Shown: in pieces, positions 8,579 to 25,295 of the stretch
Position numbering within the stretch: the first letter of the stretch is position 1
How the letters are laid out: each line of letters begins with the position of its first letter
From: a virus
DNA: 25,483 bases
IMG/VR virus record: IMGVR_UViG_3300036835_000185
Location: 1 to 25,483 of that record
Direction: 5' to 3' (one strand)
Program-made: the position numbers and the translations under genes
Notes under the pieces: generated by a model
Told to the model about the DNA's origin: nothing
The model's input: the letters and a program-made list of their open reading frames with translations, nothing else
Databases searched by the model: none

Positions 8579-8806
8579 TTAGGCGGCGTCCTTGATCGCC
8601 TGGCGAATGTCGTCCTTACGCGACCCGGCGTCGACGTCGACGCCGTGCTGTTGCGCGTAGGCGAGCAGCTCGTCCTTGGTCATCGCGTCCAGGTCATCGC
8701 CGGCGGTGGACTCGGGCGCCGTCGTGGCGCCCGAGCCCTCCTGCGATGGTCCGGAGCCATCAGCTCTGACGACCTGCTGGTTGGGTGCGTCGAGGCGATC
8801 GGTCAT
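8579..8806 (-). CDS. Small protein with C-terminal SAP/HeH-like motif
   Basis: The ATG at 8806 overlaps the stop of the major capsid gene (ATGA). The 75-aa product has a low-complexity Ser/Gly/Thr N-terminal half. It ends in a compact helix-extended loop-helix motif, MTKDELLAYAQQHGVDVD followed by SRKDDIRQAI, typical of SAP, HeH and Rho-N type nucleic-acid-binding modules. Such small proteins commonly follow major capsid genes in actinophages; they may bind DNA at the portal end or act in head maturation. The motif is clearly visible; the role is inference. An Arg-rich upstream extension of this frame is a shadow of the capsid gene and was left out. Confidence 0.8.
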   Translation of the reverse strand: MTDRLDAPNQQVVRADGSGPSQEGSGATTAPESTAGDDLDAMTKDELLAYAQQHGVDVDAGSRKDDIRQAIKDAA

Positions 8807-10014
8807 GGCGTCTTGGTGACCTTCACGATCCCCGCCGGCTCCAGCGGAAGATCCGCGAAATAGCCGGCGTACGCGACCTGCACACCGAGCACCGACGGCT
8901 CGACGACCTGCAGGCTCCCGATCCGGTCCTCGTAGACCTCGGCGGCCGCGGACGACAGCACCAAGATCGTGTTGTTCGCCAGCCCGTTGGTGACGACGAT
9001 CGGGATCCCGGCGATCGCGCCGGCGACACCCGGTCCCAGAGATCCGACCGTGAATCCGGCGCTGGACGCGTTCTGCGGGTTGACCGGCGGGAACAACGGG
9101 CCGAGCAGCCCCATCATCTGCGGCGGCGCCGCGGCGAACAGCCGCCCCTGGCCGGCGGTGGCGGCGAGCACCGAAGCCGCCGCAGCCCAAAGGGCGCCGA
9201 GCACCTCGTCAGACGTCGGTGTCCCGGTCGGCAGCACCGGCCCGGCGGTCGCGGCCGTCGCAAAGTCCGCGCATGCCACCGACTCAGTCTCGATCGCGTA
9301 CTGCGCCGCCAGGTCGTTGATGATCAGGTCCATTACCGCCGGCTGTGACCAGTCGACGTTCTGGCGGCTGACGTTCACGTACCCGCCATACGTCTTCGCG
9401 GTGACCGGGACGCTGCCGACGATCATCTTGCGGCTGACGAGCTCGGTTTTCTCGCCCGCCTGCGGGCCTGTCTGAGTGTGCTGAGTGACCCTCGGCCGCG
9501 ACCATTGACTGGACGGCAGCTGCCGGGCACCGAGCGTCGACACCAACGGCCGGGAACCGTCAATGAAATTGACGACCGGCCCGATGATCGGCTCGGGGAT
9601 CAACCCCGGATTGTCCGTGGTGGTCTGGTGCGCCGCCGCGCGGTGATACAGGTCGATTCGCGCCTCAGCGCCCTTGTCTCCGAGCCCGGCCTTCCACCGC
9701 TCGAGGATGTACGCGCCGGCGGACCGGTACTCGAGCTTCTTGGCGGCCTCGGGGTCGCGGGCCTTCTCGAACTGCTCCGCGATCTCCGCGGTCCGCCGCC
9801 TGCTGTCGACCGCGATCTGCGCCGCGAGCTGCAGCGGTTCGATCTGCTCGTTGATCTTCGTGATCCGCTCCCTGGTCCGGGTGAGCAGGGTCATCTCCTG
9901 CTCGTTTAGATCACGCTTGTCCTTCTCGGCGGCCTCGACAAGACCGTCCATGAACTGCGTGCGTTCCTCAACCTCGCCTTGGAGGCGGGCGAGTAGCGCG
10001 TCGGTTGAAGCCAT
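8803..10014 (-). CDS. Major capsid protein, HK97 fold
   Basis: This 403-aa protein forms the head shell. Residues 1-100 are a charged coiled-coil region (ALLARLQGEVEERTQFMDGL; ITKINEQIEPLQLAAQIA), as in HK97-type delta/scaffold domains that are cut off by the prohead protease. The mature part contains QWSRPRVTQHTQTG, KMIVGSVPVTAKTYGGYVNV and DLIINDLAAQYAIETE. These are the N-arm, E-loop/strand and spine-helix elements of phage_capsid family members. The C-terminal third carries GAIAGIPIVVTNG and DRIGSLQVVEPS. The start is the ATG at 10014, with a purine-rich AAAGGAAA about 14 bases upstream. A 134-bp gap, large for this operon, precedes it and may give the gene its own expression signal. Confidence 0.95.
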   Translation of the reverse strand: MASTDALLARLQGEVEERTQFMDGLVEAAEKDKRDLNEQEMTLLTRTRERITKINEQIEPLQLAAQIAVDSRRRTAEIAEQFEKARDPEAAKKLEYRSAGAYILERWKAGLGDKGAEARIDLYHRAAAHQTTTDNPGLIPEPIIGPVVNFIDGSRPLVSTLGARQLPSSQWSRPRVTQHTQTGPQAGEKTELVSRKMIVGSVPVTAKTYGGYVNVSRQNVDWSQPAVMDLIINDLAAQYAIETESVACADFATAATAGPVLPTGTPTSDEVLGALWAAAASVLAATAGQGRLFAAAPPQMMGLLGPLFPPVNPQNASSAGFTVGSLGPGVAGAIAGIPIVVTNGLANNTILVLSSAAAEVYEDRIGSLQVVEPSVLGVQVAYAGYFADLPLEPAGIVKVTKTP

Positions 10015-10148: not shown

Positions 10149-10652
10149 CTAGGCGGCGCTGATCAGCGTCGCGATCACGCCACCCTTTTTCCCGGCGGGC
10201 GGATAGCCGCCCGGGCCCGTCACGATGTGCTCGACCGTCAATTGCGCCCACGTCCCCTGCTGTGCGACTGCGGTCACGCGATAGCGAACGAACGCGTCGC
10301 CGTTGTCGAGGTCCTGCACGTCCACGCGCACTAGGTAGGAGATGAACCGGCGGGCCTGGTCGACGCCCTGATCGTCGAGGTTCGCGAACGCGAGCGTGGT
10401 CGCCTGATCCAGACTGGTGGTGTTGGCGCGAAACTCGCCGTCCGCGGGCGGCGGGACAGCGGCGTTGTAGGTGTACGCGGCCTCGTGCGTGATGACCGTG
10501 AACGACACCCACGCCGACCCGTTAAACCAGCAGTATCCCGACTCGTGGGAATAGGAGAGGTCGCCTTCAGTCCAGCCCGGGTTCGCGTCCCGGTCGGCGT
10601 CGGCGCGAAACAGCGGGATCGACGTGACGATCCCGGCCGATTGGCCGGTCAT
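10149..10652 (-). CDS. Hypothetical head-region protein (167 aa)
   Basis: This 167-aa protein is encoded between the prohead protease and the major capsid gene; its start overlaps the protease stop as ATGA. It has a beta-rich N-terminal part with an aromatic patch (WTEGDLSYSHESGYCWFNGSAW) that resembles short carbohydrate-binding or fibre-base motifs. A C-terminal part follows with a long polar strand/helix mix (RRFISYLVRVDVQDLDNG). There is no signal peptide or membrane helix. Possible roles are head decoration, a scaffold-like protein or a head fibre; position alone suggests a head-assembly part. No family is recognised. Confidence 0.75.
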   Translation of the reverse strand: MTGQSAGIVTSIPLFRADADRDANPGWTEGDLSYSHESGYCWFNGSAWVSFTVITHEAAYTYNAAVPPPADGEFRANTTSLDQATTLAFANLDDQGVDQARRFISYLVRVDVQDLDNGDAFVRYRVTAVAQQGTWAQLTVEHIVTGPGGYPPAGKKGGVIATLISAA

Positions 10653-11248
10653 ATTTGCGCGTACCGCCGTTCGAGAATCCAGCCGCGAACGATGTCCAGA
10701 TTCGGGGTCGCGACCTTCACCGCCGCCGGCGGCGCGGGCTCGTCCGCGGACCGCACAGCGAGCACCTGGGCGCCCTCATACGCGGGCTCGGGGGTCATCG
10801 CGACATGCCCGAGCCAGCAGCGGCTGTACTGGACGTGATCGCGGTCTGCCCAGTGGGTGCCGCCGGGCATCGGCGCGAACCCCGCGGACGCGTCGAGACT
10901 CTCGTCGTTGGCGAGCTCGAGCGTCTCATCCCCGAGTGGAGTGCGGCTGATCTTCACGGTCGCGATCAGCCCCCGCGGATCCTCCGGGTGAAACGACAGG
11001 GCCCGCCCGACCGTCCGCCGCAGATCATGATCGCGGTTGACACGAACGCGGTTCGCGCGCTTCTCGATCCCGTCGAACGACCCCGGCGCGACCCGCTCAT
11101 ACACCATCCGCCCGTTGTAGTGCACCAGCGCTTCCTCGTCGTAGGGCATCACGACCAGGTCGATCGTCCGCTCAGAGAAGTTGACGCCGATCTGTTGCGC
11201 CGTGCGGTACAGCCACTCGCCGGCGACGGGGCGAGCATCCTCGGTCAT
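10649..11248 (-). CDS. Prohead protease (HK97 family, S78-like)
   Basis: This 199-aa serine protease matures the prohead by cleaving the capsid N-terminal domain. The visible signature is RTIDLVVMPYDEEA near the N terminus, followed by RVAPGSFDGI, the catalytic-His segment NRDHD (His74) and the catalytic-Ser segment SLDASAGFAP (Ser121). The usual order is portal, protease, capsid, and it is kept here with one extra gene inserted before the capsid. The start ATG overlaps the portal stop by four bases. The last 40 residues are Pro/Ala-rich and end ILERRYAQI, perhaps a self-cleavage or capsid-targeting tail. Confidence 0.92.
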   Translation of the reverse strand: MTEDARPVAGEWLYRTAQQIGVNFSERTIDLVVMPYDEEALVHYNGRMVYERVAPGSFDGIEKRANRVRVNRDHDLRRTVGRALSFHPEDPRGLIATVKISRTPLGDETLELANDESLDASAGFAPMPGGTHWADRDHVQYSRCWLGHVAMTPEPAYEGAQVLAVRSADEPAPPAAVKVATPNLDIVRGWILERRYAQI

Positions 11249-12429
11249 GTTCCAGCTCCAATCGCGGTCGTAGTCGTCGTTGCGAGCATCTCGTCGAACC
11301 GCTCCAGGCGGCGGACCTCATCCGGGGCCACGACCCCGAGATTGACGTATACCTGCCAGGTCTGCGCGCGCTGCAACGGGTCGGGTTGCACGTAGCTGTC
11401 GCGGTTCAGTTCGATCCGGGTGCCGGCCGGAAGCAGCCATTCCGACAGGCCGCCCATCACCGTCGAGGCCTTCGGACGCAGGCCGGCGCGCCAGTGATAG
11501 TCGAAGATCGCCGACACGTTCGCGTACGTCATCGGATCCCCGCCCGAGGGGAGCCCGACGAGGAACGGCGGCACGCCCAGCATCACCGCGATCCGCGACT
11601 CGGAGAACTTCTGCAAGTCCGCCATCGCCATCTTCTCGGGATCCAGCTGCGTCGCCTCCCACGTCACGCCGCCCGACAGCACGGCGGGCTCGCCGATGCT
11701 GCTCTGCCGCGACGCGATCCACTGCGCCTTCAGATCGGCGGCCTGCTGCTTTGTGAGCCCCTCGGGGCTCGTCAGCACGCTCGACGGGACGCCGCCGGAG
11801 CCGACCAGCCCGTACGCGTAGTCCTTCCACATCTGCGCCGCGATCACGCTTCCCGCGCCGGCCTCCAACGGCCCGATGCCGTGCGCCTGATCGACCGACG
11901 ACTTGTAGCGCAAATGGAGCATGTCGCCGGTGACGTCGGTGCTGCCGATCGTGTAGGTCCGCTGGCCGGCGGCCAGGTCGACCTGCACAGCCCAGATCGG
12001 CACGACGTGAAACCGCGCGGGCCACCCGGTCGCGTACCGGGCGGTGCACAGCACGAACGCTTCGCCGAGCTGAAAGTCCCAAAAGAGCTGTTTGGCGAAC
12101 TCCTCCCACGACGAGTACACGAGCGGGTCGGGGTTGATCAGCCACGACGCGTCCAACGAGCTCGCCGAGTCCACCAAGTACGGCGGCATCGTCGACAGGA
12201 TCGACGCGTTGAGGTCAACGCACGTCCAGGCGGTGTCGGTCAGCTCCTGCACCTGCCCGTATGGGACAGCCCAGCCGGATGGCCAGCCCTGCCACGGCTG
12301 CAGGAAGCTTCGTGGCAGCGGCGGCGCCGGGGGAGCCTCGGTCGGGTCGAAGATGATCCCGTCGGGGTCGCCGCCGGTGTCGGGTGGCAGCGGGTCCGGT
12401 GGCCGGATCGCCCGAGTGATCAGCCCCAT
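11245..12429 (-). CDS. Portal protein (HK97-like)
   Basis: This 394-aa protein forms the dodecameric DNA gate of the head. After a Pro-rich N terminus (about 1-45), it shows typical HK97-portal elements: AWTCVDLNASILSTMPPYLV, WEEFAKQLFWDFQLGEAFV, MLHLRYKSSVDQAHGIGPLE and the stem/crown region SESRIAVMLGVPPFLVGLP. The family length is usually 400-500, so this is a compact member. The stop overlaps the protease start, and 34 bases separate it from the terminase stop. The C terminus carries a Thr run (ATTTTTA). The call rests on motifs plus the terminase-portal-protease-capsid order. Confidence 0.93.
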   Translation of the reverse strand: MGLITRAIRPPDPLPPDTGGDPDGIIFDPTEAPPAPPLPRSFLQPWQGWPSGWAVPYGQVQELTDTAWTCVDLNASILSTMPPYLVDSASSLDASWLINPDPLVYSSWEEFAKQLFWDFQLGEAFVLCTARYATGWPARFHVVPIWAVQVDLAAGQRTYTIGSTDVTGDMLHLRYKSSVDQAHGIGPLEAGAGSVIAAQMWKDYAYGLVGSGGVPSSVLTSPEGLTKQQAADLKAQWIASRQSSIGEPAVLSGGVTWEATQLDPEKMAMADLQKFSESRIAVMLGVPPFLVGLPSGGDPMTYANVSAIFDYHWRAGLRPKASTVMGGLSEWLLPAGTRIELNRDSYVQPDPLQRAQTWQVYVNLGVVAPDEVRRLERFDEMLATTTTTAIGAGT

Positions 12430-12463: not shown

Positions 12464-14368
12464 TCAGTAGATCGCCGGGACCTTCGCGGGACGGTCCGCG
12501 GCAGCGACCGCCCACACCACCGCCCGGATCAAGTGCGTCGGCCCGCGGGCCGCGAGGAACAGCCCGGATGGGGCTTCGCGGACCTGCGCGACCGACACCG
12601 CCATGTCCAGGTCCTGCGTCGTCGAGTCGTGCGCCAGCCGCCCGCCCGCGGCGAGATCCCGGAACACCGCGAGCGCCTTACGCGTCTCGGTGCCGCCGGC
12701 AGGCACCGGTGTCGGCAGGCCGGACGGGATCCGGTCAAGCAGCGAGCTGCCGACAACCAGTTGCCGCACACCACCCTCGGCGAGCTCGACGACGTCGACG
12801 ATCGCCGAGTCCCAGTCGGCGCGCAGCCACCCGTCGACCTCGAGACGTCCATCCTCGAGCACGCGAGCGGCCGCGACCGCGGCGCCCAGGCCGTAGTCGT
12901 CCTCGATCGCCACGAACAACTCACCGGTGCCCGACACTCCCGGCTCGCGCAGCTCGTCCCACAGCCCGGGCTCGAGCAGATCCTCGGTCGCGCCCGCCGG
13001 CTCGGCCTTACGCCGCGGCCACTGGTTCAGCCACTGCGCGCGAAACGCCTCGATCGGATCGGGCTCATCCGGATCATCGGTCTCGCCCGACCGGGCCGCG
13101 TCGAGCCGCTGACGGATCATCCGCTCACGCCGGCTCGTCCAATAAGGGGACGCGAGCCGCCACGCCGAGACATCGTCGAGGTCTGAGTCCCGAGGCGCCG
13201 ACCATTCGATCAGCAGATCACCCTCGCCGGTCTCGAGATACTCGAGCGCGAGCGCCCGACGGCCCAGCATCAGACTGGTGGCCATCCGGTGCGCTGTCGA
13301 GACGAGCCACAGCTGCGGCTGCTCACGCTCGGCCATCGTCGGCGTCAGCCCCTCCTCGACCGACGAGACCCGTACCTTCCACGCCTCGTCGACCAGTGCG
13401 CCTGACACCGAGTAGCCGTACGTCGCCTCCTTGGCTCGCAGCATCCACCGCGACCCGTCGGCGAGCAGCTCGATCTCCTCCTGCCCGTTGACCTCCCGCA
13501 CCCGATAGTCATCGGGCCGCTGCTTGGCATAGATCCGGGCGACCCGCTGCACCTCCTTGCAGATCGTCAGATCCCGGCCGGTGTGCAAGATGTCCTGCGG
13601 CTCGCCGAACCTGTCGCCCTGCGCCATTCGCCAGAGACAGATCTCGCGCAGCAGCCACGACTTCCCCAGCTGCCTCGCCAGCGTGAGGATCACCGCCTCC
13701 CACACCAGCCGTCCCTGATCGTCGACCTCGAGCAGCCGGACCGCGACCAGCCGCTGCCACCACCGCAACGGCCGCCCCGACCGGCGCTGCGCGCTGCGCA
13801 CGAACTCCGCGCCCAGCGACCCGACCGCCCTGGGGTGCGGAACGGTCATCAGCCGAGGCCAAGTCGCGTCGCGCGGCACGCGACGCAGCGGCCGCAGCCA
13901 CGGCACGTCCCATCGAGGATCCTTGCGGCCCACGCCGGCGCGTTCGGGCGCCAGGTCCTCGACGACCGGTGAGTCACCCGGCCGCCACCGGCCGAGCGCG
14001 ACCATCTTGCCGCCCTCGCGGTTGCACTGAGTACAGCTCGGGATCAGCCGGCAGCACCCCGATCCCTCACGGTGCACGTGCATCGCCAGCGGGGGATCGT
14101 GATCGGCCTCGGTCGCCTGGCGGCGCTGACAGTGCGCACAGAGAACGGGCGGGTCGAGCAGCTGCGCGCGCTGACGCCGGTACTTCGCGCCATACGGGGA
14201 CCGGCTAGCCAAATCGGCCCGTTCGGGGGAGAAAAGTGCCCGTGAGAGCGTCAACGGGGCGCGCGCCACAAAAAAACCGGGGGGCGTGTGGCGCGTGGCG
14301 CCGACGGCGCGTGTGGTGTGATGTGTGTGTGTGTTGGGGGGGTGGGGTGGGGGTGTGAGGCATGGCAT
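12464..14368 (-). CDS. Terminase large subunit with fused N-terminal HNH nuclease domain
   Basis: This DNA-packaging motor appears to carry an extra nuclease. With the longest frame (634 aa), residues 75-120 form an HNH/McrA-like domain: Cys77-x2-Cys80, the catalytic-type A-D-H at 88-90 followed by DPPLA, and IPSC-x2-CN (Cys112, Cys115, Asn116). The terminase follows: LRWWQRLVAVRLLE, Walker A ARQLGKS at 231-237, Walker B ALVDEAW at 324-330 and motif STA at 357-359. The RNase-H-like nuclease includes FVAIEDD near 486-491. The first 50 residues are low complexity and doubtful. Alternative starts are GTG at 14269 and TTG at 14254 or 14212, all without a clear ribosome site. The longest form is given because it leaves only a 15-base gap to the upstream gene. 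No separate small subunit was found. Confidence 0.88.
   Translation of the reverse strand: MPCLTPPPHPPNTHTHHTTRAVGATRHTPPGFFVARAPLTLSRALFSPERADLASRSPYGAKYRRQRAQLLDPPVLCAHCQRRQATEADHDPPLAMHVHREGSGCCRLIPSCTQCNREGGKMVALGRWRPGDSPVVEDLAPERAGVGRKDPRWDVPWLRPLRRVPRDATWPRLMTVPHPRAVGSLGAEFVRSAQRRSGRPLRWWQRLVAVRLLEVDDQGRLVWEAVILTLARQLGKSWLLREICLWRMAQGDRFGEPQDILHTGRDLTICKEVQRVARIYAKQRPDDYRVREVNGQEEIELLADGSRWMLRAKEATYGYSVSGALVDEAWKVRVSSVEEGLTPTMAEREQPQLWLVSTAHRMATSLMLGRRALALEYLETGEGDLLIEWSAPRDSDLDDVSAWRLASPYWTSRRERMIRQRLDAARSGETDDPDEPDPIEAFRAQWLNQWPRRKAEPAGATEDLLEPGLWDELREPGVSGTGELFVAIEDDYGLGAAVAAARVLEDGRLEVDGWLRADWDSAIVDVVELAEGGVRQLVVGSSLLDRIPSGLPTPVPAGGTETRKALAVFRDLAAGGRLAHDSTTQDLDMAVSVAQVREAPSGLFLAARGPTHLIRAVVWAVAAADRPAKVPAIY
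14336..14353 (+). other. G-quadruplex-prone G runs next to a GT repeat
   Basis: The plus strand has runs of 7, 4 and 5 G separated by single T residues. A (GT)n-like stretch lies just before them at about 14311-14335. The seven-G run can supply two triplets, so an intramolecular four-run G-quadruplex is possible. It lies at or just inside the possible start of the terminase gene, on the template strand of the leftward transcript. Its role is unknown; a packaging-site or transcription-pausing function is only a suggestion. Confidence 0.5.
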
Positions 14369-14383
14369 ACCCCACCCCGTCCC

Positions 14384-14662
14384 CTACCTGCTGCGCCTGG
14401 TGCTGGCACCGGTCGGTCGGCTGTTGCCTACTGCCATGCCGGGGTACCGTCGGCGTACGGCGGCGGCGACCTTGGCGTAGGAGCCGCTGGTGCCGGGCTG
14501 TGCTGCTCGAGACAGGGCGGCGCGTGCCCGGCGTCGGGTGTTGATGGGGTACTGCCTGGTCTTCGGGTAGACGAACGCCGAGGCGGGCAGCCGGCTGACG
14601 CCTTTGGCTGTGCTCTTGGCTCTGGGTCTTGGGACCATCTTGGCTCTGGGTCTTGGGACCAT
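14384..14662 (-). CDS. Small basic DUF6582-like protein
   Basis: This 92-aa basic protein starts at the ATG at 14662, eight bases after AGGAG; that ATG also shares a base with the stop of the upstream gene. The core LPASAFVYPKTRQYPINTRR, followed by RAALSRAAQPGTSGSYAKV and AVRRRYP, matches a widespread short module ('lp.saFayP..rkYPI....ARnALaR...hgt......v...v..ryP'). I recall it as DUF6582, common near phage capsid and packaging genes. Its function is not established. A 24-bp tandem duplication repeats the first eight codons, so a second in-frame ATG lies at 14638. Its place just before the terminase is where a small terminase would be expected, but it does not look like one. Confidence 0.75.
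   Translation of the reverse strand: MVPRPRAKMVPRPRAKSTAKGVSRLPASAFVYPKTRQYPINTRRRARAALSRAAQPGTSGSYAKVAAAVRRRYPGMAVGNSRPTGASTRRSR
14615..14662 (-). repeat. Perfect 24-bp tandem duplication covering a start codon
   Basis: Two identical 24-base units (14615-14638 and 14639-14662) encode the octapeptide MVPRPRAK twice at the start of the DUF6582-like gene, each unit with its own ATG. Only the first ATG has the AGGAG ribosome site. The length is a multiple of three, so the frame is kept. Perfect identity suggests a recent slippage or duplication event. Confidence 0.9.
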
Positions 14663-14886
14663 CAGTCCTGCTCCTGTCTTGCTGGGATCCAGTCGATGCA
14701 GACGACAGCATGGGCCGGCCATGACTGCCAGTGGTCGTTGGTGTCGGCGAGCCAGTGGATCCACCCGTCGGTGATGCGTGCGAACCCTTCGCTGGTGTGG
14801 TGTTGGCGTTGGCCGAGCTCGGTGTACTCGAGTGTGAGCCGGGCGCGGCGGTCGCCGGGGCTGACGTCGGGCTGGTCATCGTTCAC
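14662..14886 (-). CDS. Hypothetical protein after the M15 lysin (74 aa)
   Basis: The GTG at 14886 overlaps the M15 lysin stop (GTGA) and defines the start. The 74-residue product, LTLEYTELGQRQHHTSEGFA and then DGWIHWLADTNDHWQSWP, is rich in Trp and His and reads as a small alpha/beta domain ending in CIDWIPARQEQD. There is no membrane helix, so it is not a holin. The longer open frame upstream is a shadow of the lysin. Its stop shares one base with the next start. Close coupling to the lysin hints at a lysis-related or late role, but no family is recognised. Confidence 0.7.
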   Translation of the reverse strand: MNDDQPDVSPGDRRARLTLEYTELGQRQHHTSEGFARITDGWIHWLADTNDHWQSWPAHAVVCIDWIPARQEQD

Positions 14887-15500
14887 CCTGGGTTGCCCAT
14901 TGGTTGCCAGGCGATGCTCTTGCCGCCGTCGGTTGTGTACCACTTGCCGTTGGCCTGGTTCTGCCAGGTGTGGAACACCTGGCCGGTGTCTGCTTTCTGC
15001 ACGAACACTTCGATGGCGCCGTTGTGTTTGAGGATGGTGGCGATGCTGTCGTCTGGTGTGATGGGTTCGGGTGTTGGCTTGCCTTGTGGTCCTGGGTCGG
15101 TGCCGTGGTAGTGGCCGGATTGGTAGACGATGTGCCACCACTCGGTGGGCGCATCGGACCAGGACTTCGAGTAGCCGTATTGCTTGCCGATCTGGTCGAC
15201 GATGGTGCGCATCTGTTGGGTGGCGAGGTCGACGGCGTCGCCCCATCCGTGGTTGCTTGTGCCTGGCTTGGCGGCGAGATTGCCGGTGCCGTTGAGGTAG
15301 GCGTTGTAGAGCTCGACCTGCTGCTCGTAGGTGCGATAGGAGGACTTCGATCCGGTCGGGTACAGCTGCAGTCCACGCTTGCGGGCCTCGACGTTCATGG
15401 CGTTCCAGCCGGCGGCGGCCTCGGTCTTGAGCTGGCCCTGGTAGATGGGTGCGAGTGCTGATGCTGGTAGCCGGCCGTTCTGGTAGTTGCCGTTACTCAT
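14883..15500 (-). CDS. Endolysin: M15 (VanY/D,D-carboxypeptidase-like) peptidase with C-terminal WQ-rich module
   Basis: This 205-aa protein probably cuts peptidoglycan stem peptides during lysis. The zinc peptidase occupies about residues 10-135. YPTGSKSSYRTYEQQVELYN is the family's substrate-side stretch. The zinc ligands are His84 and Asp91 in SNHGWGDAVD, with Glu120 and His123 in EWWH; all key residues are present. A Pro-rich linker (about 133-147) leads to a 58-residue module (AIEVFVQKADTGQVFHTWQN; GKWYTTDGGKSIAWQPMG). The same module ends the GH25 lysin at the far right. It resembles one blade of the PLL/tectonin-like beta-propellers of actinobacterial lectins, so cell-wall binding is likely. 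There is no signal peptide, so release would need a holin. Confidence 0.9.
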   Translation of the reverse strand: MSNGNYQNGRLPASALAPIYQGQLKTEAAAGWNAMNVEARKRGLQLYPTGSKSSYRTYEQQVELYNAYLNGTGNLAAKPGTSNHGWGDAVDLATQQMRTIVDQIGKQYGYSKSWSDAPTEWWHIVYQSGHYHGTDPGPQGKPTPEPITPDDSIATILKHNGAIEVFVQKADTGQVFHTWQNQANGKWYTTDGGKSIAWQPMGNPG

Positions 15501-16952: not shown

Positions 16953-17999
16953 TTACAGGTTCCCGTCTGCCAGCCACTGGTTGTAGAGCTCCATCGCTCG
17001 CTCGAGATCCTTCTGGTCCTGGTGGCCGTAGACGCCGAGCGTGGTGGAAAGGTCGGTGTGACCGAGCGCTTGGCTGGCGCCTTCGATGCCGGCGACGCGG
17101 CGGAGCTCGATCGCGAATGCGTGCCGTGCCTGGTGCATGTTGAGCCCTGAGGTGACGCCTTGGCCGACGAGGCCGGCGGCCTGGAGCTGGTGATACCACC
17201 AGACGTGGACGACCTTGCCTGAGGCTCTGTCTTTGGGGCGCCCGCTTAGGCGCCACTGGATCTGGCCTTCGGAGCCCTTGCCGCATGCGCGACGGTCGGT
17301 CGGATAGACGAGGTAGTCGTCGGGTTCGGGTGGCCGTCCGACGTGCGGCAGGTCGGCGCTGAGCGCCAGCTTGAGCTCGGCGAGCATCAGCGGCGGCAGC
17401 GGCAGGATCCGTTCCTTTTGGCCCTTGCCGAACACGACGAGCTGTTTGCGTTCGGTGTCGAAGTGGCGGAACTGGATGCCGGCTAGCTCGTTGCGCCGCA
17501 CGCCGCGGATCAGCAGGCAGTAGAGCGCGAGCCGGTCGCGGGGTGTCCGGATCTCCTCGAGCAGCTGGGGGCGTGCCGCGAGCGGGAGCACCTTAGCGAC
17601 CCGGCGCTCCGCTCGCGGCCGCCTGATTCTGGCGGCCGGGTTCACAGCGACGAGCATCTGCTCCTCGCACCAGCCCCAGAACGCTCTGATCACGCTCGTG
17701 ATCTTCTGCCGGGTCCGCGCCGATTGCATCGCCCAGAGGTCGATCACCTCGCGCAGGTCTTCGGTGCTGACCTCGATCAGCTCGCGGTCCGCCAGCGCGA
17801 TGCTCATGCGGGCGAGGATGGCTTCGTAGTCCCGGACGGTTGAGGGTGTGGCGCCCCACTCGTTGCGCAGCCAGCGGATGTAGCGCCCGACCGTCGTCCC
17901 TACCGGGGTCGCGCGGTAGGACTGGTCTTTCACTGCGGCGCGCATGATAACCGCGAGCTCAGCGAAAGTCAGGCGGTCATGGTAGGCAACCGGGGCCAT
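16953..17999 (-). CDS. int: Tyrosine-type site-specific integrase
   Basis: This 348-aa recombinase inserts and excises the phage at the tRNA/tmRNA-like site beside it. The ATG at 17999 follows GGAG by five bases; a GTG two codons upstream would sit on that ribosome site. Residues 1-115 form the core-binding SAM-like domain (TVGRYIRWLRNEWGATPSTV; RQKITSVIRAFWGWCEEQ). The catalytic domain shows the usual set: Arg168 in RGVRRNEL, Lys195 in GKGQKER, His289 and Arg292 in HQARH, His314 in ALGH and the nucleophile Tyr324 in TTLGVYGH. Nothing is missing or truncated. It reads towards the att site, and the next gene starts four bases on. Confidence 0.95.
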   Translation of the reverse strand: MAPVAYHDRLTFAELAVIMRAAVKDQSYRATPVGTTVGRYIRWLRNEWGATPSTVRDYEAILARMSIALADRELIEVSTEDLREVIDLWAMQSARTRQKITSVIRAFWGWCEEQMLVAVNPAARIRRPRAERRVAKVLPLAARPQLLEEIRTPRDRLALYCLLIRGVRRNELAGIQFRHFDTERKQLVVFGKGQKERILPLPPLMLAELKLALSADLPHVGRPPEPDDYLVYPTDRRACGKGSEGQIQWRLSGRPKDRASGKVVHVWWYHQLQAAGLVGQGVTSGLNMHQARHAFAIELRRVAGIEGASQALGHTDLSTTLGVYGHQDQKDLERAMELYNQWLADGNL

Positions 18000-18080
18000 C
18001 AGCACTCCGCCCCGAGATGCCGATAATTAAGGTAGCCCGCCCGGAATCCGCCGCACGGGCTTGCGAGATAGGAGGGTCTC

Positions 18081-20656: not shown

Positions 20657-21871
20657 CTACTCCTGGCCGGCGTTGCGCGCGTCGATGATCGCGCTCATCT
20701 CGGCGAGCAGCTCGCCGGCCTGTTTCTGGGACAGCTGCCGAAAGGTTTCATTGCCGAGCGGACCGCGTTCAGGCACGGAAACTCCGTAACCACGGAGTTT
20801 TTCGCGCAGCCAGCTATCGGGGACGCCGGACTCTGATCGTGCCCAGGTGAGCATCCCTACCCGGGCGTCGGTGACGTCGACGATCTCGTCCTCGTCGAAC
20901 GAGCGCTGCTCGCTCGCGGGCTCCTCAGACGCCGCCGGCTCGGTCGGGAGCTCGGCCGGCGGCGCCGAGGCGGGGGCAGATTCGAGCGCGTCGATCAGCG
21001 TCGAGGCTTCAATGTCGGTGAGCTCGTTCGCGGAGGCGATCTCGCGGTCGAGGTGCTCGTTGGCCCATCGCAGCCGCTCGTCGCGGTCGCGCAGGTTGTG
21101 TTCGCCGAACAGCGCGAAGAGTTTTTTCATCTGCTGGTCGGTGGCCCTGGGCGTTGGGGACTGGTCGTCGAGCGGCGGCTCGTCGGGTGTGGGCTGTTCG
21201 GTGTGGGCCTGTGAGCGCGTGGCGAGCGCGGGCGCGGCGGGTTTGCGGCGACGCCGCAGTGGTTTCGCGTCGGCCGGCGGCTGGGGCTCGGCGGGTTCGA
21301 TGTCGTCGTCTTCGAGCTCTTCGATGGCGTAGGGGACGCCGAGGATGGCGTCGGCGGCGACGAGGCGGGCGACTTCGGCGGTGGCGCGGGCGATGAGCAT
21401 GTTTCGGGGTTGGGTGCGCCAGTTGCGTTTGCCGGCGATGCCGCGGCTGCGGGCGTCGTCCATGGTCCAGGTGACGCGCTGTTCGTGCGTGTCGCCGGCG
21501 CGGACGCCTGCGACGGCGGCGCGGGTGTTGTTGGCTTCCTCGACCCAGATGCGGTGGCCGGCGCCGAGCACGATCGCTCGTAGGGCGAGCGCGGATAGGG
21601 CGGGTGAGGAGTTGATGACGTGGATGGAGCGCAGCGAGGCCATCGGCTCGAGCCCGAGCTCGCGGCCGGTGAGGATCGCGGCGGTGACCTGCGCGGCGGT
21701 CGCTTCGCTGTCGTAGTCGCGGCCGTTGTTGCGGAACACGCGTAGCGACTCGGGCACGAACGCGGTGCGGGCCATGTCGCCTGAGACGCGAGCGAGGGTG
21801 AGGAACGATTGCGCCCACTGCTCTAAGCCGGCGGGGCCGGGCTCGAGCGGCTCGGCTAAGACGACGCTCAC
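20657..21871 (-). CDS. recT: RecT-like single-strand annealing protein
   Basis: This 404-aa recombinase pairs with the exonuclease gene just upstream. The GTG at 21871 overlaps its stop (GTGA). Motifs of the actinophage RecT group are visible: DSEATAAQVTAAILTGRELGLEPMASLRSIHVI, here given in pieces as TAAILTGRELG and PMASLRSIHVI, then SALALRAIVLGAGH, VTWTMDDARSRG and PRNMLIARATAEVARLV. The N-terminal 250 residues are the annealing domain. The C-terminal part has a Pro/Glu-rich linker (about 225-275) and a helical segment, DQQMKKLFALFGEHNLRDRD, then NELTDIEASTLID, as in other members. The role is annealing of 3' single strands during replication-linked recombination; it is not an ATPase. Confidence 0.87.
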   Translation of the reverse strand: MSVVLAEPLEPGPAGLEQWAQSFLTLARVSGDMARTAFVPESLRVFRNNGRDYDSEATAAQVTAAILTGRELGLEPMASLRSIHVINSSPALSALALRAIVLGAGHRIWVEEANNTRAAVAGVRAGDTHEQRVTWTMDDARSRGIAGKRNWRTQPRNMLIARATAEVARLVAADAILGVPYAIEELEDDDIEPAEPQPPADAKPLRRRRKPAAPALATRSQAHTEQPTPDEPPLDDQSPTPRATDQQMKKLFALFGEHNLRDRDERLRWANEHLDREIASANELTDIEASTLIDALESAPASAPPAELPTEPAASEEPASEQRSFDEDEIVDVTDARVGMLTWARSESGVPDSWLREKLRGYGVSVPERGPLGNETFRQLSQKQAGELLAEMSAIIDARNAGQE

Positions 21872-22641
21872 GACGCCGCCTGCGTCGCCGGCGCTCGCAG
21901 CGATTCGCCGACCCATTCGCGCTGGTGGTCTTCGCTGGCGTGCCGGGTGACCCAGAGCAGGTGGCGCCAGGCGAGCCAGATGTCGTCGTCTGCGACGAGC
22001 GGGTAGAGGTCGTAGCCGTCGGCGCGGACGTGCACTGCTCCGACGCGGGTGATCGCGAGCTCGGCCATGTCGTGCTCGTTGCCTTGGTCGTCGACGTACA
22101 CCTCGGCGCGGGCGTAGGCGCACAGCTGCAGTGCGGTCTCGCCGAAGATCCCGGACCGGCTGGTTTTGATGTCAAGGAGCCAGCGGTCGCCTGCGAGATC
22201 GGCGACCTGGTCGAGGGTGCCGCAGTAGCGCAGGCCGCGGTGAGCGATGACGGCTTCGACGAGCACCGGCTGCACGTCGAAGGCGTCGAGGAAGCTGATG
22301 TAGCTCTCGACGTGGCCGCGTAGCTCCTCGGGGGTCTGGTCTGCGACGTCTTCGCCGGCGACTGTTCGCTCGGCGAGGCGGTGCACTTCAGTGCCTCGTC
22401 TCGCGGCGGCGTCTCGCTCCTCGTAGCGGGCTTTCTTGAGCCGGTCGAGGCGTTTGCTGGGGGTGAGCTCTGAGAGCTCGTCCCAGTAGTCGATGGCGTA
22501 GCTGGCGGTTGTGTCGCCGGCCCAGTTGACCAGGGCGGGTTTGGGGAGCGCGTTTCGCAGGATGGTGGTGACACCGTCGACCTTGGTCCCGTCGATGGCG
22601 TAGGAGTGGCCTCTGCCGTGGTTTCGGCGGGTGATGCTCAT
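21868..22641 (-). CDS. Cas4/RecB-like PD-(D/E)XK exonuclease
   Basis: This 257-aa nuclease probably chews duplex ends to give the 3' tails used by the RecT-like protein. The RecB-family set is complete: RRGTEVHRLAE with His87, LVEAVI with Glu129, CGTLDQVADL with Asp144, LLDIKTS with Asp157 and Lys159, and ETALQLCAYA with Gln172. No iron-sulphur cysteine cluster of true Cas4 is visible, so it is closer to phage RecB-like exonucleases. The start ATG overlaps the upstream gene (ATGA) and the stop overlaps the recT-like gene. No cas genes lie nearby, so a CRISPR role is not supported. Confidence 0.88.
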   Translation of the reverse strand: MSITRRNHGRGHSYAIDGTKVDGVTTILRNALPKPALVNWAGDTTASYAIDYWDELSELTPSKRLDRLKKARYEERDAAARRGTEVHRLAERTVAGEDVADQTPEELRGHVESYISFLDAFDVQPVLVEAVIAHRGLRYCGTLDQVADLAGDRWLLDIKTSRSGIFGETALQLCAYARAEVYVDDQGNEHDMAELAITRVGAVHVRADGYDLYPLVADDDIWLAWRHLLWVTRHASEDHQREWVGESLRAPATQAAS

Positions 22642-24247: not shown

Positions 24248-25042
24248 TTAGCCGCCGGGCTTGCCCATCGCCTGCCAGCCGATCGTCTTTCCGCCGTCGG
24301 CGGAGTACCACTTGCCGTTTTCGGCTTGCTGCCAGGTGTGGTAGACGCGCCCGTCGTCCTTTTCGACGAACACCTCGAGCGCGCCGTTCTTCTTGACCAC
24401 TGCGGCGATCATGTCTTCCTCCGTTATTGGTTCTGGGGTGGGTGATGGTGTTGGTGCCTGGCCGCCGCGCACTTGTTTGATGAAATCATCGGCGGTCTTG
24501 TGCGCGAGGTTCCCGTCACACGAGCCGATCCCGTCGAAGTGGTAGCTGTCTGAGAACTGCCACAGATCGTGATGATCAGACGGCTCGCTCGAGCTGTAGG
24601 CGGCGATCCAGATCGGGCGCGAACCCCAGTGCCCCACGCCCGAGAGCTGGTCACGGAAGAAGTACAGCGACGCGTACAGCATCGACTGAAAGCCGGCCCA
24701 CTTGTCGACGACATCGAACCATGCCTGCGCGCGGCTGGTCTGACTGCCGGAGCCTTCCTCGACGTCGAGGATCGCCCACTCGTTGTCCTTCAGCTGACCG
24801 ACGGCGTTGATGAACCCGTTCGCCTGCGTTTTGGGGTCGACATCGGACGCCAGGTAGCAGTAGTAGCCGATCCCGGTGAACGCGTATTTGCGCAGGTAGT
24901 CGCGGCGGCCGGGGAACGTCTTGTCGGCCCGGTAGCCGCTGTAGGCGCGGGCGATGATGCACTTGTGACCGGCGTTCAGGTAGGCGGGCGCGTCGACGTT
25001 TGACTGCCATTCGGACACGTCGGCCATGCGAATGTCACTCAT
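24248..25042 (-). CDS. Endolysin: GH25 muramidase with C-terminal WQ-rich module
   Basis: This 264-aa enzyme should cleave the glycan strands of peptidoglycan. The ATG at 25042 overlaps the holin-like gene by eight bases and has GGAG nine bases upstream. GH25 features are visible: MADVSEWQSNVD with Asp8, HKCIIARAYSGYRADKTF, the catalytic ILDVEEG (Asp93, Glu95), then QSMLYASLYFF, IWIAAYSS and HDLWQFSD. After a Thr/Pro linker (about 200-212) comes the same 58-residue module as in the M15 lysin (ALEVFVEKDDGRVYHTWQQ; GKWYSADGGKTIGWQAMG). There is no signal peptide, so the neighbouring holin-like protein should release it. The long upstream extension of the frame is a shadow. Confidence 0.93.
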   Translation of the reverse strand: MSDIRMADVSEWQSNVDAPAYLNAGHKCIIARAYSGYRADKTFPGRRDYLRKYAFTGIGYYCYLASDVDPKTQANGFINAVGQLKDNEWAILDVEEGSGSQTSRAQAWFDVVDKWAGFQSMLYASLYFFRDQLSGVGHWGSRPIWIAAYSSSEPSDHHDLWQFSDSYHFDGIGSCDGNLAHKTADDFIKQVRGGQAPTPSPTPEPITEEDMIAAVVKKNGALEVFVEKDDGRVYHTWQQAENGKWYSADGGKTIGWQAMGKPGG

Positions 25043-25295
25043 TGGGCGGCACTCCATCCGTTGGGGGTGAACCGTTCTGTGACGCGCCGACGCGGTAGCC
25101 GACATACGCGCCGATGATCCCGACGATCCCGCCGCCCCAGCCGGTCAGGATCTGTGTCGCGTTCTCTGACACTCCGGAGCTCCCGGTGCGGAAGATCGCT
25201 TCGTAGAGGATCGCGATCGTGAACATGTTGATCGCGGTTCCGAGCGCGATCGCGAGAATGAGCGCGATCACCCAGGCGCCCTGCTTGGTGTTCAT
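25035..25295 (-). CDS. Holin-like membrane protein (86 aa)
   Basis: This 86-aa protein has two hydrophobic helices: about 5-35 (QGAWVIALILAIALGTAINM) and 50-70 (TGWGGGIVGIIGAYVGYRVG). A short polar loop joins them, and a hydrophilic Pro/Gly-rich C terminus follows. Size, topology and direct coupling to the GH25 lysin fit a class II holin that opens the membrane for the lysin. The start ATG lies next to the stop of the acidic-protein gene. A second allele of its first 32 codons lies at 1-97. The holin call is contextual, since holins share little sequence. Confidence 0.8.
   Translation of the reverse strand: MNTKQGAWVIALILAIALGTAINMFTIAILYEAIFRTGSSGVSENATQILTGWGGGIVGIIGAYVGYRVGASQNGSPPTDGVPPNE

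Follow-up and report, generated by a model that had tools for sequence, protein, structure and literature searches.

The viral DNA analyzed here, positions 1 to 25,483 of IMG/VR record IMGVR_UViG_3300036835_000185 (25,483 nucleotides, hereafter the window), carries a gene in which an HNH nuclease domain is fused in a single reading frame to the large terminase subunit (TerL). This fusion, HNH-TerL, is real and conserved in a family of small soil phages, and, as judged from sequence, its ATPase is intact while its RNase H-type nuclease center is degenerate. With moderate confidence, we infer that the HNH domain is the nuclease that cuts the genome ends (cos), covalently tied to the packaging motor, and that the RNase H-type domain does not cut. 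The components are known; no description of an HNH-TerL fusion, or of such a single chain combined with a degenerate TerL nuclease, was found in the papers searched, which formed a limited library.

HNH and TerL share one conserved reading frame

Positions 12464 to 14368 on the minus strand form one uninterrupted open frame, in which C..C, DH, and C..C-N motifs precede the Walker A (ARQLGKS) and Walker B (DE) motifs. An earlier note on this DNA had taken the whole frame as the gene. The fused frame holds, but the gene is shorter, spanning 12464 to 14212 and encoding 582 amino acids, and this single frame comprises an HNH domain, a TerL ATPase domain, and an RNase H-type domain, as follows.

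12464..14212, minus strand: HNH-TerL single-chain terminase gene, 582 amino acids, likely TTG start at 14212-14210 (relatives' aligned starts and the stops 5' of them)
13979..14194, minus strand: HNH (His-Me finger, zinc) domain, type A, with C25, C28, D37, H38, C60, C63, and N64 (motif conservation, profile, and fold)
13013..13858, minus strand: TerL ATPase domain, Walker A at 13658-13675 and Walker B DE at 13385-13390 (phrog_9; fold match to 6z6d)
12482..12991, minus strand: RNase H-type nuclease domain with a degenerate active site (fold match to Sf6 nuclease 5c12; acids counted)
12899-12904, minus strand: E437-D438 of the RNase H-type domain
12743-12754, minus strand: VGSS at the site of the second catalytic acid (D2) of the RNase H-type domain
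12524-12538, minus strand: THLIR at the site of the third catalytic acid (D3) of the RNase H-type domain

The choice of the TTG as the likely start codon was guided by the relatives, several of which (contigs L081, L041, L044, L013, L031, and L036) have an in-frame stop directly 5' of the aligned start. Because of these stops, and because the predicted genome end described below falls inside the stretch, the 52 N-terminal codons of the longer frame (14213-14368) are probably noncoding. The ATG at 14368 was ruled out as a start, since a gene beginning there would span the predicted genome end and relatives carry stops in this region.

IMG/VR holds at least 171 relatives of HNH-TerL, the best 80 of which were analyzed. 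Together with the window, these include 67 distinct sequences at 90% identity, with a median pairwise identity of 62% and a minimum of 50%. A complete HNH domain lies in one frame with TerL in 75 of the 80 rows, and the remaining five end at a contig edge; every relative with a complete 5' end thus has the fusion, down to 50% identity, and in none is it out of frame. The search for other single-chain HNH-TerL proteins that the earlier note had proposed therefore returned a conserved fusion, and the sequencing frameshift between two genes that it had considered is excluded by the occurrence of the same single frame in about 75 independent contigs. An assembly or sequencing artifact joining two genes, for which the metagenomic origin of the data is the sole argument, has a negligible probability given that these contigs come from many samples. 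No fusion of this family was found in cultured phages, and neither PDB sequence searches nor host-directed scans of genome contigs returned a relative.

Two types of HNH domain occur on the TerL part

The first 96 amino acids from the corrected start match the HNH endonuclease family phrog_589 (E value, 3.5e-5). An AlphaFold 2 model of this part (predicted local distance difference test [pLDDT] score, 84.8) had as its top structural match the GVE2 phage HNH endonuclease 5h0m (Z score, 5.3; root mean square deviation, 3.7; 70 residues; 27% identity), and the next matches had Z scores of at most 4.2. A Z score of 5.3 is modest, as expected for a 96-residue domain, and Foldseek alone gave no significant match for the HNH part. 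The GVE2 enzyme has the same zinc C..C pairs and catalytic His as the fused domain; it differs in being free-standing and in having His as its third motif residue, whereas the fused HNH has Asn after the last Cys.

Two types of HNH were distinguished among the relatives. Type A (C..C, DHxPPLxMH, CC.....C..CN), found in 53 rows, retains DH and both C..C pairs in 53/53 and the CN asparagine in 50/53. Type B (C..CG..I.PGEPWDLGH..GPEH..CN), found in 22 rows, has invariant cysteines and catalytic His (22/22) and matches phrog_1808 (E value, 6e-13); in cultured phages, the free-standing genes related to it lie at the right end and are mostly annotated as HNH endonucleases. The family thus shows the zinc C..C pairs, catalytic His, and following Asn or His of HNH/His-Me finger endonucleases. 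On a quick tree of the TerL part, the HNH type changes four times, with at least three of the changes forced by well-supported branches, and the fusion is retained through each exchange. Since the fusion outlasted at least three swaps of HNH type, the TerL of this family appears to require an HNH of some kind.

Another family, phrog_4581, labeled as a terminase small subunit, gave weak HNH matches in two stretches, a hint at fusions of HNH to the small terminase subunit (TerS). On these weak profile matches, it would resemble HNH-TerL in that an HNH is joined to another terminase subunit, which is not TerL.

Two of the three catalytic acids are missing from the RNase H-type domain

The TerL part matches the terminase large subunit family phrog_9 (E value, 6.3e-31), while Pfam alone gave only subthreshold matches. 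The whole-chain model (pLDDT, 79 overall and >85 through nearly all of the nuclease domain) matches HK97 TerL 6z6d with a Z score of 17.6, and its C-terminal domain matches the Sf6 nuclease 5c12 with a Z score of 14.5 (root mean square deviation, 2.7; 157 residues). Structure prediction, suggested in the earlier note, thus yields both an HNH and a TerL fold, and together with the motifs and the two profile matches it bears out that note's placement of an HNH motif set in frame ahead of Walker A.

The Walker A (GKS) and Walker B (DE) motifs are complete in 80/80 sequences. The catalytic acids of HK97 TerL are D302, D388, and D471 (PMC9410871), and these are invariant in 80 HK97 relatives (the D388 and D471 equivalents are D in 80/80 and 79/79, respectively). 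This three-acid center is not found in HNH-TerL. The equivalent of the first acid (D1) is acidic in 80/80 sequences, being E in 76 and D in 4. In contrast, the D2 equivalent (HK97 D388) is acidic in 0/80, the family having VGAS at this place, and the D3 equivalent (HK97 D471) is acidic in 0/79 and is R or K in 78, within the family motif THLVRA. D2 and D3 were mapped via Quenya-type terminases, using a joint alignment and secondary structure. Judged by its ATPase and predicted fold, HNH-TerL is a TerL, one without the canonical TerL nuclease center. Because the second and third catalytic acids are lost, its RNase H-type domain is probably unable to cut. The earlier note had not mentioned this loss; with two of the three acids gone, the likely meaning of the fusion shifts from a helper that is attached to a nuclease that is supplied.

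Contig ends place a predicted cos site just upstream of HNH-TerL

Alignment of the relatives' contigs located the following features in the window.

14246..14250, minus strand: predicted genome end (cos), with the left end at about 14246 and the right end at about 14249-14250, followed by TTTTCTCCCCC towards HNH-TerL (pile-up of relatives' contig ends)
14270..14276, minus strand: T-run, a conserved landmark upstream of cos (relatives)

The left ends of 24 of 66 contigs fall 8 to 14 nt before a C-tract just upstream of HNH-TerL, and a few further contig ends, such as those of L003 and L036, were seen by eye at the same site. Four linear contigs that start at cos (L014, L037, L044, and L066) have right ends about 20 to 21 nt after the T-run, which precedes the cos site in uncut contigs. 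The window is itself uncut at cos and carries both landmarks. The two ends of one relative contig overlap exactly over 127 bp, corresponding to a circle of about 25.9 kb, and another contig overlaps itself through cos. When overhang length and type were compared, end-to-end distances varied between relative contigs. Because of this clustering of contig ends immediately 5' of HNH-TerL, with matching right ends, the phages that carry it look like cos phages whose linear genome has HNH-TerL as its first gene. Fixed ends near the terminase gene, as in HK97-type cos packaging, were seen at the level of contig ends, and they fit the connection to HK97-type cos cutting that the earlier note had drawn.

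Nonfused relatives carry a separate HNH gene beside cos

For comparison, we examined a nonrandom sample of eight nonfused relatives whose TerL lacks D2 and D3, namely, Quenya, Ghobes, Greenhouse, Maja, Trine, Mahdia, Wizzo, and phi673. These actinophage terminases are phrog_9-like and belong to the same TerL lineage as HNH-TerL, with 22 to 26% identity where aligned. The D2 and D3 acids are missing in 8/8, and in 8/8 a separate HNH is the last or next-to-last gene, at the right genome end beside cos and next to the terminase. Unlike the fused phages, they encode the HNH on its own, with the genome end separating it from TerL, and several have a TerS. Corynebacterium phage phi673, which has measured 13-nt 3' cohesive ends (PMC6132909), was considered as an exception without an HNH and rejected as such, since an unannotated right-end gene at 44197-44457 on the plus strand (MG324353) matches phrog_338 (E value, 1.8e-24); this gene adjoins the known cohesive end. 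When three HNH families were used to search 14 fused genomes for a separate HNH, they matched only the fused copy or nothing. A right-end HNH in 8/8 nonfused relatives and no second HNH in the fused genomes are the outcome predicted if a cos-side HNH moved into terL.

More widely, the TerL of many actinophages (L082 to L086 and L292 to L294), including Cutibacterium phage Wizzo, is without the canonical nuclease acids D2 and D3, and Wizzo TerL seems to be without all three.

In HK97 (TerS gp1, TerL gp2, HNH gp74), gp74 promotes cos cleavage together with TerL (PMC9410871). HK97 resembles the predicted HNH-TerL system in that an HNH and TerL act at cos, in the ATPase and RNase H folds of TerL, and in the portal, protease, and capsid genes that follow it. 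The HK97 HNH, however, is encoded on its own on the far side of cos, and HK97 also has a TerS and a TerL whose D302/D388/D471 triad is intact.

No TerS was detected in the fused genomes

There is no gene in the 34-bp gap between HNH-TerL and the portal gene, and none of the small open reading frames (ORFs) scanned in the window matched a TerS. Searches of 35 relatives with PF05119 and with the Quenya TerS gave no match, PF05119 being a weak test that also misses the HK97 TerS. No conserved TerS candidate was found in 12 near-complete genomes; the set common to at least 11 of these comprises the HNH-TerL, portal, protease, and capsid genes plus small ones that follow capsid and probably serve head completion. 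The phrog_16160-like ORF before cos was rejected as a TerS since it occurs in only 4 of the 35 relatives. TerS is therefore undetected, which does not imply that it is absent, and to this extent the earlier note's remark that no small subunit was seen stands. Its suggestion that the HNH stands in for, or helps, a missing TerS is unsupported, since the nonfused counterpart is a separate cos-adjacent HNH gene and some relatives have a TerS as well.

The HNH domain as candidate cos nuclease

In the reading we favor, HNH-TerL would serve as terminase in a small, temperate, tailed phage of the cos type, where the separate cos-side HNH of related phages became fused to the TerL N terminus. The ATPase part would package DNA. 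Because the RNase H-type domain, without its second and third acids, is probably noncutting, the N-terminal HNH would make, or be needed for, the cos cuts that begin and end each genome, and the RNase H-type domain would be retained as a structural or DNA-holding and -handling part. Tethering the HNH to the ring motor would couple cutting with translocation, and the helper role of HK97 gp74, the nearest precedent, would have been turned into that of the main cutter; how cos would be recognized is likewise something we infer.

Several observations weigh against this reading. The CN asparagine is absent from three type A HNH domains, and the HK97 HNH merely assists an intact TerL nuclease. Direct hhalign comparison with the HK97 nuclease gave no result, so that the D2/D3 mapping went through intermediates. 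The D1-like acid is retained, D438, D466, D519, and E546 are highly conserved, and 76% of the sequences have a D three residues past the D2 site; the RNase H site is possibly rearranged rather than dead. The searches could also have missed a TerS that evolves fast or a second HNH that has diverged. If the site is rearranged, the RNase H-type domain might itself cut, with the HNH stimulating it or making one nick like gp74, an arrangement in keeping with the remaining conserved acids, the well-preserved nuclease fold, and the joint action of gp74 and TerL. However, two of the three canonical positions are never acidic, D3 is mostly R or K, and relatives show the same decay with an HNH nearby; we regard this assisting role as rather unlikely. 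It is improbable that the HNH is mainly a cos-binding element that takes over the TerS role, with cutting secondary. The lack of a detected TerS, the position of the HNH part in the usual TerS place, and the capacity of a zinc domain to bind DNA would suit such a role, but the catalytic DH is invariant in type A, the HNH gene that is its counterpart in nonfused phages lies across cos, and Wizzo, phi673, and Quenya carry both an HNH and an annotated TerS. Finally, the several exchanges of HNH type might suggest a selfish homing endonuclease, inserted in frame at the terL 5' end and acting outside packaging. We consider this very improbable, as the optional, mobile presence expected of such an element is not seen (the HNH is in every complete relative and never out of frame) and, in phages generally, free homologues lie at the genome end on the cos side.

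The HNH as cos nuclease might apply to the whole TerL lineage, with the terminase RNase H nuclease dead and ends cut by an HNH only, which would act in cis in the HNH-TerL family and in trans in many actinophages; we hold this extension tentatively, at slightly less than even chances. The fusion bears on the question of why an HNH protein is needed next to the terminase in so many cos phages, and it predicts the HNH as the cutting enzyme in many actinophages, including those of Cutibacterium acnes. HNH-TerL with its decayed RNase H site offers a one-protein system in which simple point mutants could separate the two nuclease activities.

Neighboring genes and other features of the window

The genes flanking HNH-TerL are listed below.

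11245..12429, minus strand: portal gene (Phage_portal; E value, 1.4e-43), 34 bp after HNH-TerL
10649..11248, minus strand: prohead protease (Peptidase_S78; E value, 2.9e-8)
8803..10014, minus strand: major capsid protein (phrog_2263; E value, 9e-65)
14384..14764, minus strand: ORF just 5' of cos (phrog_16160 and weak DUF6582 similarity)

The last of these ORFs contains an exact 24-bp tandem repeat in two copies (14614-14663). No tRNA was found in the window. A tyrosine integrase and an exonuclease/RecT pair (16953-18005; 21868-22641; 20657-22123) mark the phage as temperate and as carrying recombination genes of its own. Two cell wall enzymes, a VanY-type peptidase and a GH25 lysozyme, are encoded at 14883-15500 and 24248-25105, distant from each other.
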